From: Gammaproteobacteria bacterium
GTDB lineage: Bacteria > Pseudomonadota > Gammaproteobacteria > Xanthomonadales > Xanthomonadaceae
Length of the DNA stretch: 10,517 nucleotides
Direction of reading: 5' to 3'
NCBI GenBank assembly: GCA_012510865.1
Contig: JAAZHF010000376.1
Location: 1-10,517, forward strand
The translations under genes and the position numbers were made by a program. The notes under the pieces are model-generated. The model made no database searches, was not told the DNA's origin, and worked only from the letters and a program-made list of their open reading frames with translations. Below are positions 2,574 to 7,970 of this stretch, one piece after another. Positions within the stretch are counted from its first letter, which is position 1, and each line of letters opens with the position of its first letter.

Positions 2574-3044
2574 ATGCTCCGCGTCACCCGCCTCACCGAC
2601 TACGCCACCGTGGTGCTGACCGTGCTTGCCGCGGAGCCGGAGCGTGTCCTGAGCGCGGCCGAGCTCGCGGAGCGCGCGGGCCTGGAGACGCCCACGGTCA
2701 GCAAGGTGCTGAAGCCGCTGGCCCAGGCGGGCCTCCTGGAAGCCTTCCGCGGCGCGCACGGCGGCTACCGCCTGTCGCGCCCCGCCGGCCAGATCAGCCT
2801 GATCTCGATCGTCGAGGCCATGGAAGGCCCGCTGGCGATGACCGAGTGCAGCCTCGACGACACCAGCTGCGGCATCGCCAGCCAGTGCGGCGCGCGCGCC
2901 AACTGGCGCCGGATCAACGACATCGTCGCCGACGCCCTGCGCGGCGTCAGCCTGGCGCAGATGCTCGACGCGCCTTCCAACCCCCCTTCCGGGCCCGGCC
3001 CGGATGCGTCGCGACGCATCCCCGCCCGGCTCGCCAACGTTTGA
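2574..3044 (+). CDS. Rrf2-family SUF operon regulator (IscR-like)
   Basis: The 156-residue protein has the Rrf2 layout: an N-terminal [19 protein letters not shown], a winged helix with the recognition segment [20 protein letters not shown] (38-57), and the wing [12 protein letters not shown] (59-70). Cys92, Cys99 and Cys105 (C-x6-C-x5-C) sit where IscR carries its cluster-binding cysteines, so it probably binds an Fe-S cluster and reports cluster supply. Together with its place 17 bp before sufB this matches the SUF-specific Rrf2 regulators typical of xanthomonads. The tail after about residue 134 is Pro/Gly-rich and looks disordered; its codons contain a 20-bp palindrome (3002-3021). The ATG at 2574 gives the canonical N-terminus; AAGGA lies 12 bases upstream. 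It probably represses or activates its own operon; the sign cannot be read from the sequence. Confidence 0.93.
3002..3021. repeat. 20-bp perfect palindrome at the end of the regulator gene
   Basis: GGATGCGTCGCGACGCATCC is fully self-complementary. It lies in the codons of the regulator's disordered tail, 40 bases before sufB. As RNA it folds to an 8-bp stem with a CGCG loop. There is no following T run, so it is not a normal terminator. It may be a processing or stabilising hairpin between the regulator and structural genes, or an operator. Confidence 0.6.
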
Positions 3045-3061: not shown

Positions 3062-4441
<1,380 letters not shown>

Positions 4442-4444
<3 letters not shown>

Positions 4445-4531
4445 AAGCAGGTCTTCCTCGAATTGCCGATGGAGTTCGCGGTGGAGGCGAAGAAGTCGCT
4501 GGAAGTGCGCCTCGAGGGCTCGGTGGGCTGA
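4442..4531 (+). pseudogene. sufB: In-frame SufB C-terminal segment after the internal TGA
   Basis: Reading through TGA 4442-4444 in the sufB frame gives 28 residues beginning KQVFLELPMEFAVEAK and ending LEGSVG before a second TGA at 4529-4531. This is the standard SufB C-terminus; with one residue for the TGA the full protein would be 489 residues, close to E. coli SufB (495). Codon use is like the rest of the gene and there is no frameshift. TGA differs by one base from the Cys codons TGC/TGT expected here. The segment is either the tail of an intact gene with a base error, a fresh pseudogene, or translated by read-through or selenocysteine insertion. Confidence 0.85.
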
Positions 4532-4645
4532 GACCGCGCGGTCGCGGATGCGGCTGCCGCGAGGGCGGGTCGCAGCTGTAGCTGCTCCTACAGGAATCGG
4601 GAGGTCCGGCTGGCTGGCCGGTCGTCCCAGACACGAGAGAACGAA
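4532..4645 (-). repeat. sufB-sufC spacer with REP (GTAG-type) palindromic element
   Basis: The element proper is 4566-4594. On the minus strand it begins CCTGTAGGAGCAGCTACAGC and continues TGCGACCCG. The GTAG tetranucleotide is followed by a GCAGC/GCTGC stem with a four-base loop (4572-4585 on the plus strand). This matches the well-known REP pattern of Xanthomonas, Stenotrophomonas and Pseudomonas that RAYT (REP-associated tyrosine) transposases recognise. No RAYT gene is in the window and only one copy is seen. The same spacer carries a 12-bp perfect palindrome GACCGCGCGGTC (4532-4543) directly after the second sufB stop, and a GCGGC/GCCGC repeat (4550-4560). Such elements inside operons can protect upstream mRNA or lower downstream expression. 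Confidence 0.7.
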
Positions 4646-5412
<767 letters not shown>

Positions 5413-5413
<1 letters not shown>

Positions 5414-6684
5414 TGGCGACCCTGCTCGAATCGCTGGCAACGGGATTCAGCGGCGAGGGCGCACGGCGCGCCGCGCTCGACGCCGCGCTGCGCGACGGCC
5501 TGCCGCACGCGCGCAGCGAGGCCTGGAAGTACACCTCGCTGCGCCAGCTCGAGCGCCGCAGCTTCTCGCCGGCGGCGCTGCCGCACGCGGCCGTGGACCC
5601 CGCGCTCGTCGCCGGCATCCCGGCGCCGCGCCTGGTCTTCGCCAACGGCCGCTTCGACGCCGGGCTGTCCGACCTCTCCGGGCTGCCGGACGGCGTGCGC
5701 CTGCTGACGATGGCCGAAGCCCTGGCCAGCGACGACCCGCGCGAGGGCAACGTGCTGGGCCGCAGCTACGAGCGCGCCGACGAGGTGTTCGCACGGCTCA
5801 ACGCCGCGCTGGCCGACGACGGCGCGGTGCTGCGGGTTGCCGAGGGCGTGGCGGTCGAGGCCCCGGTGCACCTGGTCTTCGTCGGCCTGCCGGCGGAAGG
5901 CGACCTCGCCTGGCATTCGCGCCACCTGATCGAACTTCGCCGCGGCGCATCGGCCACGGTCATCGAACACCACGTCGCCGGCGGCGACCACGCGCACCTC
6001 GGCAATGCGATCGCCCACGTGCACGTCGCGGCGAACGCCTCGCTGCGGCACGCGCGCGTGCAGGACGAATCCGACCGCGCCACGCTGATCACCCGCACCG
6101 ACGCCGTGCTCGCGCGCGAGTCGAGCTATCGCCGCCTGGACCTCGAACTCGGCGCTGCGCTGTCGCGGCACGAGCTCAACGTGCGCCTCGAGGGCGAACG
6201 CGCGGACCTGGTCGCCAATGGAGTGATGCTGGCCTCCGGCCGCCGCCACCTCGACACCCGCCTCGGGATCGACCACATCGCCCGCGATACCCGCTGCGAG
6301 CTCGGCTGGCGCGGCATGGCCGCGGGCCGCGGCCGCGCGGTGTTCCACGGCGGCATCGAGATCCGCGCCGGCGCGGACGGCACCGACGCCCGGCTGTCGA
6401 ACAAGAACCTGCTGCTGTCCGACACCGCCGAGATCGACACCCAGCCGGTGCTGGTGATCCACGCCGACGAGGTCACCGCCGCGCACGGCGCCACGGTCGG
6501 CCAGCTCGACGCCGAGGCGATGTTCTACCTGCGCACGCGCGGCCTGCCCGAGCCGGAGGCCCGCGCCCTTCTGACCGCCGCCTTCGTGCGCGATCCGCTG
6601 GTGTCCGTGGTCCAGACGCCGGCGATCCGCGAGCGGCTGGAGGCCTGGCTCGATCGCGCGATCGCGGCGCAGGCGCTGGCATGA
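5413..6684 (+). CDS. sufD: Fe-S cluster assembly scaffold subunit SufD
   Basis: SufD pairs with SufB and binds the second SufC; the SufB-SufD interface is the proposed site of cluster formation. The 423 residues equal the E. coli length. The N-terminal part carries the SufD-type RSEAWKYTSLRQL (35-46). The C-terminal beta-helix part has GRGRAVFHGGIEI (305-317), SNKNLLLSD (329-337) and HADEVTAAHGATVGQLDAEA (350-369), where His358 corresponds to the important E. coli His360. The Cys two residues before it in E. coli (Cys358) is Ala356 here, and the whole protein has only one cysteine (Cys295). The start at 5413 is fixed by the TGATG overlap with sufC; an upstream in-frame ATG at 5374 lies inside sufC and is less likely. 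The stop overlaps the sufS start (ATGA). Confidence 0.96.
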
Positions 6685-7970
6685 GCGGGCCCGGCGCGAC
6701 GCGCCGCGATCCGGGCCTCCCGCCCCGGGCGGCGGAAGGGCAGCCGGGCCCCGGTGTGGACTGGTCCAGGGTCCGCGGCGACTTCCCGCTGCTTGGGCGC
6801 GAGGTCCATGGCAAGCCGCTGGTCTACTTCGACTCCGCGAACACCAGCCAGAAGCCGGCCGCGGTGATCGACGCCGTGGACGGTTTCTACCGCCGCCACA
6901 ACGCCAACGTCAGCCGCGCCGTGCACCAGCTCGGGAGCGAGGCCACCGAGGCCTACGAGGACGCACGCGCGAAGCTGGCCGGCTTCATCAACGCCCGCCC
7001 GGACGACCTGGTGCTCACCAGCGGCACCACCTTCGCGATCAACCTCGTGGCGTACTCGTGGGCGCTGCCGCGCCTGGGGTCCGGCGACGTGATCCTGCTC
7101 ACGCGCATGGAGCACCACGCCAACATCGTGCCCTGGCAGCTGGTCGCACAGCGGACCGGCGCGCGCATCGACGTGGTCGAGCTGCTGCCCGACGGCAGCC
7201 TGGACCTGGACATGCTGCGGGCGAAGATCGCCGGCGACGTGAAGCTGCTCGCGGTCGCCCACGTCAGCAACGTGCTCGGCACGGTCAATCCGGTGGCCGA
7301 CATCTGCCGCGAAGCGCGCCGCCGCGGCATCGTCACCGTGGTCGACGGCTCGCAGGCGCTGCCGCACCGGCCGGTCGACGTGGCCGGCATCGGCTGCGAT
7401 TTCTACGCGCTCACCGGCCACAAGATGTGCGGACCGACCGGCACCGGGGCGCTCTGGGCCCGCCGCGGCCACCTCGACGGCATGCCGCCCTTCATCGGCG
7501 GCGGCGAGATGATCCGCGAGGTGCGCCTGGACGGCGGGACGGTGTTCAACGACCCGCCGCGGAAGTTCGAGGCCGGCACCCCGAACATCGCCGGCTTCGT
7601 CGGCCTCGGCGCGGCGGTGGACTATCTCTCGGCGCTGGGCATGGACCGGGTCGAGGCCCGCGAGCAGGCCCTGCTGGCGCACCTCGCCGAGGAGTTCGCG
7701 AAGGTCGACGGCCTGCGCGTGTTCGGCACCGCGCCGGGCAAGGCGGCGGTGGTGTCGTTCGCGATCGACGGCGTGCATTCGCACGACCTCGCCACCCTGC
7801 TCGACCTGGAGGGCATGGCGGTGCGCTCGGGCCAGCACTGCGCGCACCCGCTTCTGGAATGGCTCGGCGTGTCGGCCACCTGCCGCGCGTCGCTGGCCTT
7901 CTACAACACCCACGAGGAAATCGACGCCTTCGTGGCCGCGCTGCGCAAGGTCCGCCGGCTGCTGGCCTAG
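6681..7970 (+). CDS. sufS: Cysteine desulfurase SufS
   Basis: SufS is a PLP enzyme that removes sulfur from L-cysteine, giving alanine and an enzyme persulfide for SufBCD. The 429-residue protein has fold-type I motifs: FDSANTSQKP (50-59), TSGTTFAINLVA (113-124), EHHAN (144-148), HVSNVLGTVNP (194-204), VDGSQALPH (221-229) and TGHKMCGPTGTG with PLP-binding Lys248. The active-site loop RSGQHCAHP (382-390) carries Cys387, the class II (SufS) pattern, followed by RASLAFYNT with Arg402. Residues 1-26 are a Gly/Pro/Arg-rich extension before DWSRVRGDFPLL, where E. coli SufS begins. The ATG at 6681 overlaps the sufD stop, which supports it; GTG at 6756 is a possible shorter start. Its usual sulfur acceptor (SufE or SufU) is not in the window. 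Confidence 0.96.
   Translation: MSGPGATRRDPGLPPRAAEGQPGPGVDWSRVRGDFPLLGREVHGKPLVYFDSANTSQKPAAVIDAVDGFYRRHNANVSRAVHQLGSEATEAYEDARAKLAGFINARPDDLVLTSGTTFAINLVAYSWALPRLGSGDVILLTRMEHHANIVPWQLVAQRTGARIDVVELLPDGSLDLDMLRAKIAGDVKLLAVAHVSNVLGTVNPVADICREARRRGIVTVVDGSQALPHRPVDVAGIGCDFYALTGHKMCGPTGTGALWARRGHLDGMPPFIGGGEMIREVRLDGGTVFNDPPRKFEAGTPNIAGFVGLGAAVDYLSALGMDRVEAREQALLAHLAEEFAKVDGLRVFGTAPGKAAVVSFAIDGVHSHDLATLLDLEGMAVRSGQHCAHPLLEWLGVSATCRASLAFYNTHEEIDAFVAALRKVRRLLA

Follow-up and report, generated by a model that had tools for sequence, protein, structure and literature searches.

In the genome assembly of a gammaproteobacterium of the Xanthomonadaceae, sufB ends 29 codons early, at a TGA. Rather than a new selenoprotein, this codon most likely marks a gene that has become shorter or an error in the draft genome, and on balance we lean towards a genuine nonsense mutation by which this lineage has lost the end of sufB. 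In the mechanism that we propose, such a mutation would have ended the gene at codon 461 and ribosomes would stop at the TGA to yield a 460-residue SufB. This protein would retain the core together with those residues that Escherichia coli requires, but its SufC-binding C-terminal helical region would lack the final 29 residues, and the 3′ remnant of the gene, released from selection, would be drifting. We infer that the living organism has the stop as well as its assembly, and that SufB remains functional in the shortened form, if perhaps weakly, since no second scaffold was found in the assembly. The evidence for the stop comes from one draft genome of one strain, and the counts are small.

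The window, 10,517 nucleotides in all, is the entire contig C176 of a draft genome (G000) of 2.67 Mb in 469 contigs, 91% complete and with 4.7% contamination. On its plus strand, a gene for an Rrf2/IscR-type regulator (2574..3044), recognised from a gene call and a domain match, lies 5′ of sufB, which was identified by its reading frame and by Pfam and NCBIfam models and occupies 3062..4444 as translated (460 residues and the TGA). The remnant of sufB (4445..4531; 28 codons and the ancestral stop) and a spacer (4532..4645) separate it from sufC (4646..5413) on the same strand, and sufD (5413..6684), which overlaps the end of sufC, and the sufS frame (6684..7970, with a putative start) follow. 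The contig also carries genes for an acetyltransferase and a Rieske protein and, judged by eye, the probable start of a TonB receptor gene. The spacer holds a repeat-like element, GTAGCTGCTCCTACAG, that recurs in sampled contigs of the same genome; the relatives G003 and G018 have it too, G015 has one that resembles it, and G012 lacks it.

As the first-pass annotation had described, codon 461 of the frame that starts at 3062 is TGA (4442..4444), preceded by VDGF and followed by 28 more open codons and a second TGA at 4529–4531. It had also placed this TGA at a conserved cysteine codon, and codon 461 is indeed TGC in 41 of 41 relatives read. Related strains ending at VDGF, which it had named as a sign of a tolerated truncation, were not found: the sufB match extends to residue 489 in all 60 relatives (in one, at a contig edge, it begins at residue 240). 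In three of the 60 the match contains a single stop, which falls at residue 9 in one relative and ahead of residue 11 or 12 in the other two, and none of these is near residue 461. Of 143 members of the class, 85 match sufB, and G000, itself one of the 85, is alone in having an internal stop; the other 84, two of whose matches end before the tail, have none. A real truncation of sufB would thus be rare.

The collection of genome contigs, which may not include all records of the genome that holds the window, was also scanned with a degenerate pattern for SufB carrying TGA. The single match was spurious, lying antisense to a dehydrogenase-like frame. Since the same pattern with a cysteine codon fits 39 of the 41 relatives, the scan is sensitive near this genus. 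At the protein level, none of the best 120 of 7,871 proteins (8,000 candidates scored, in a database clustered at 90%) is more than 90% identical to the window's SufB; the relatives that are named belong to the Lysobacteraceae, e.g., Pseudoxanthomonas and Cognatilysobacter, which makes this the probable family of the organism.

What would a SufB of 460 residues keep? The Pfam domain SUFBD_core ends at residue 460, so that a stop at this point would remove about 29 C-terminal residues, and the shortened protein passes the NCBIfam cut-offs, scoring 842.6 bits with NF008773 (cut-off 717) and 606.5 bits with TIGR01980 (cut-off 346.4). SufB of E. coli, a component of the SufBC2D complex (PDB 5awf, 5awg), is of the same family, and its residues 20–466 align to residues 24–460 of the window's protein; the E. 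coli chain runs on to residue 495, whereas translation of the window's SufB would go no further than the counterpart of 466. The E. coli study (PMC5571166) gives R226, N228, C254, Q285, W287, K303, C405, and E434 as essential. Their counterparts, with positions matched by eye on the alignment and letters checked in the sequence, are R219, N221, C247, Q278, W280, K297, C399, and E428, all before the stop. Because all eight remain, a shortened but working SufB is possible.

What would be lost is part of the docking surface. The C-terminal helical region of SufB binds SufC, according to the same study (PMC5571166), and here that region would be incomplete, as translation would stop 29 residues early. 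For the SufC2D2 complex, another report describes the contact on SufC as involving β6, α2, α3, and the Q-loop (PMC6006206). A structure prediction for the read-through form of the window's SufB has a mean pLDDT of 62.5, below 50 for residues 450–489, and its helix at 449–466, which spans the stop, is unreliable at such confidence. The suggestion that SUF may be the only cluster system in this lineage is borne out as far as tested: neither an IscU/NifU_N domain nor a second sufB was found in the assembly.

The tail had been said to show no decay, and this is wrong: it is normally very constrained, yet among its 28 codons in the window three carry unique replacements. Across the 231 pairs of 22 relatives, codon differences in the tail amount to 112 replacement and 1552 silent, with at most two replacements in any pair. 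The tail of the window, its stop counted, differs from those of the same relatives by four residues (18 relatives) or five (4 relatives). R466L, L479S, and S483R are unique to the window in the genus set (37 genomes, its own included); the relatives whose tails were read have Arg or Lys at 466, always Leu at 479, and always Ser at 483, and each of the 35 relatives scored, one partial relative being left out, has at most one unique replacement in this stretch. Over the whole gene, the unique replacements relative to the 22 relatives number eight in codons 1–460 and three in the tail (P 0.013 to 0.021).

Nucleotide comparisons with the two relatives G003 and G018 give a similar picture. Against G003, 6 of 84 bases of the remnant differ after the stop codon and 6 of 114 in the adjoining non-coding stretch, while none of the 59 coding bases just before the third position of codon 461 does; the corresponding differences from G018 are seven, six, and two. 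The remnant, therefore, changes about like non-coding DNA. One of the three tail replacements requires two adjacent base changes, which is unlike random error. A weaker test, of replacement versus silent changes in the tail and in codons 247–460 against G003 alone, gave P 0.16. The three unique replacements in a normally constrained tail thus favour a genuine truncation with an unselected remnant over a lone base error. An open frame past a stop is better judged by constraint across relatives than by its readability.

The excess of replacements is a property of sufB within the operon. Its unique codons comprise 12 replacement and 4 silent changes, the highest ratio of 23 genomes (the next is 1.12). 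The corresponding counts are 2:5 in sufC, 6:13 in sufD, and 9:15 in sufS, none of them raised, and to judge from their sequences SufC, SufD, and SufS look ordinary overall. The replacement ratio of sufB differs from that of sufC, sufD, and sufS together with P 0.008; without the tail this becomes marginal (P 0.052). Against 22 relatives, SufC has only two unique replacements. These, G45V and G50C (codons at 4778 and 4793), both G>T, affect glycines that are constant in the 22 relatives (E. coli SufC has Ser and Gly at the matching positions 44 and 49), sit together just past the nucleotide-binding loop, and, as they lie within 350 bases of the stop, extend the cluster of changes beyond the remnant.

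This cluster bears on the chief rival explanation, that the stop is an artefact and that the living organism has full-length SufB; base 4444 might be wrong, the consensus might be bad over a local patch, or the draft genome might mix strains. The fragmentation, incompleteness, and contamination of the assembly allow for it, as does the rarity of internal stops in the class. Around the stop, the window has six changes at otherwise constant sites in 360 bases and the other genomes (23 in the comparison) have at most four, and a bad consensus patch or imported DNA would also account for this cluster, the SufC glycines included. The window between 3801 and 5400 is mostly 93–100% identical to G003 and G018 per 100 bases (down to 89% at 4701–4900), and the identity drops on both sides; this block may reflect recombination or just conservation.

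Against an artefact, errors should strike sufC, sufD, and sufS equally, and the excess of replacements is confined to sufB. A damage signature of G>T or C>A changes was sought and rejected, as these make up four of the eight base changes close to the stop and 18 of the 75 found elsewhere, a difference that is not significant (P 0.20). Nonsense errors also appear to be uncommon in the assembly, since a sample of 96 genes (29,906 codons), compared with open reading frames of G015 and G012, yielded only two premature stops that were judged clean, the one in sufB and one in a small gene on contig C205. The sample comprised 42 contigs, the window, and the flanks of searched genes, at identities of at least 65% and with overlapping duplicates dropped; the count of two leaves out three alignments that, well within a contig, fall short by more than 25 residues. 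Other stops were discounted by eye: two TGA codons where one gene aligns with gaps, a TGA that precedes a probable start, a TAG where the end of a gene matches poorly (57% over 7 residues), and three TAG codons of a single 156-residue reference frame taken as non-coding. The small gene on C205 (locus L211, about 3205–3209, minus strand) has TGA where G015 has Trp, eight codons before the ancestral stop, and its tail is identical at seven of eight positions, which could mean that errors are scattered through the assembly. Given the tail changes, a lone TGC-to-TGA error, which the first-pass annotation had thought the simplest option, and a very recent mutation have both become less likely; error in some form keeps a considerable chance, smaller than that of a genuine mutation.

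For the genuine truncation, then, the sequences put forward the unique replacements in the tail, its constraint in relatives, the excess limited to sufB, and the retention of the essential residues, and together these would favour it. Against it, the apparently sole Fe–S scaffold would be deprived of most of its final SufC-binding residues, and the changed SufC glycines would fit a bad consensus patch as well. One might instead propose that sufB is dying, with an intact sufB or another scaffold lying in the missing part of the genome. The incompleteness of the assembly and the replacement ratio of sufB, the highest among the 23 genomes, are in keeping with this, but neither a second copy nor a NifU_N domain was found in the assembly and the neighbouring sufC, sufD, and sufS look constrained; we consider it unlikely.

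The replacement of cysteine by selenocysteine at residue 461, which the first-pass annotation had raised, is suggested by the TGA in a Cys codon and by the company that this genome keeps. SelA was found in 5 of 41 genomes, a count that includes its own; four of the five are among the 24 same-genus relatives searched, and the fifth belongs to another genus. These four, G012, G015, G018, and G003, give the highest SufB scores after the window's own and have tRNA-Sec in the selA locus. In G012, this locus has formate dehydrogenase genes, an fdhE-like gene, selA, selB, selC, and a selD-like frame (names other than selA assigned by eye), with Rfam matches to SECIS_3, in the formate dehydrogenase gene, and to tRNA-Sec. 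Like the sufB of the window, the selenocysteine formate dehydrogenase gene of G012 has an in-frame TGA within a conserved gene; it has SECIS_3 and tRNA-Sec in its locus and selA in its genome, whereas none of these was found for sufB in G000.

The site of this locus is empty in G000. On the continuous contig C182 (locus L130), positions 6558–6934 match 2031–2407 of the G015 locus L119, and 6959–7508 match 17492–18046; just 24 bases (6935–6958) replace the 15 kb of the formate dehydrogenase and selenocysteine locus (L119, 2408–17491). Both flanks enclose the locus in G015, G003, and G018, and G012 shares one of them. The locus is either lost in the lineage of G000 or was never gained. Nor did the search for selA, selB, and selC, which had been proposed as a check, recover the machinery elsewhere in the 91% complete assembly. 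SelA was not found in it, and the best SelB match, at 192 bits (cut-off 242), is taken for an EF-Tu-like GTPase. With 19.9 kb of G012 as query, 15 matches were obtained in G000, none of which covers a sel gene, those inside the selenocysteine genes being short (about 30 to 100 bases). The best tRNA-Sec match in G000 (47.4 bits, just above the cut-off of 47) is tRNA-Ser by ARAGORN.

The bacterial SECIS search, also proposed at the outset, gave no Rfam match at 4300–4800, though SECIS_3 was detected in the G012 control. The hairpin after the TGA is no better than shuffles (z −0.21), and its fold, at −14.1 kcal/mol, is weaker than that of 20 among the 22 relatives that have Cys there (in one by only 0.1), equal to that of one, and stronger than that of another. 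The hairpin is thus a by-product of the coding sequence, and a weakened one in this genome. Residue 460 of the window's SufB aligns to residue 466 of the E. coli protein and the TGA to Cys467, whose change to alanine had no conspicuous effect according to the E. coli study (PMC5571166). A selenoprotein is recognised by a functional cysteine and a conserved protein beyond it; here, the cysteine is dispensable in E. coli and the tail carries three unique replacements, and selenocysteine would not relax the constraint on the tail. Among the literature examined by title, no paper about a selenocysteine form of SufB was found. With its locus missing from a continuous contig, machinery and SECIS not found in the assembly, and the cysteine dispensable in E. 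coli, selenocysteine fails as an explanation, and we give it next to no credence. Such a SufB would have been striking, and it fails a clean genomic test, the empty site.

Reading of the UGA by other means, through leakage or a suppressor tRNA, could also yield enough full-length SufB, and no further stop interrupts the frame before the ancestral one. Functional use would, however, keep the tail constrained, and it is not. None of the 34 tRNA places found in G000 has the anticodon UCA (tRNA-Trp, a possible suppressor, is not among them either, probably because of an assembly gap), and UGA as a general sense codon is rejected by the terminal stops of 57 sampled genes, of which 45 are TGA, 6 TAG, and 2 TAA, with four having no stop in view, so that TGA closes 45 of the 53. 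The one further point in favour of read-through is that prfB, encoding RF2, was not found in the assembly, where two weak matches were seen, one of which lies beside a HemA-like frame and by eye looks like RF1. The usual neighbour of prfB is lysS, and here contig C51 (4,088 bases) breaks off within that gene. A gap that contains prfB is therefore likelier than the loss of RF2, and read-through is very improbable.

A SufBD-family scaffold with a short end is known from the archaea. SmsB of Methanocaldococcus jannaschii (MJ0034; PDB 9h7y, 9h78) belongs to the minimal SMS system, and its chain as solved, of 316 or 321 residues, stops shortly past the point that matches residue 460 of the window's SufB, in an alignment that is distant and weak (E about 6e-4 to 1e-3). 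As described in PMC12192291, SmsB and SmsC form a scaffold, and SmsC2B2 is an Fe–S assembly system that, when oxygen was absent and sulfide supplied, rescued an E. coli strain lacking both ISC and SUF. From the ends of these chains and the rescue, a short end exists in nature and is not fatal to such a scaffold. The missing tail is no rule for SmsB, since its NCBIfam model reaches into the tail, to residue 486 of the window.

It is tempting to propose, as a speculation that we hold rather doubtful, that a SUF-only bacterium lives with a SufB that lacks part of its SufC-docking end and that its SufC partner has adjusted through G45V and G50C. If so, the SufB–SufC interface of this SUF scaffold would be reduced, and the scaffold somewhat like the short-ended archaeal MJ0034. 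A shortened SufB in an assembly in which no other scaffold was found would show, if confirmed, how little of the SufC-binding end a SUF scaffold needs.
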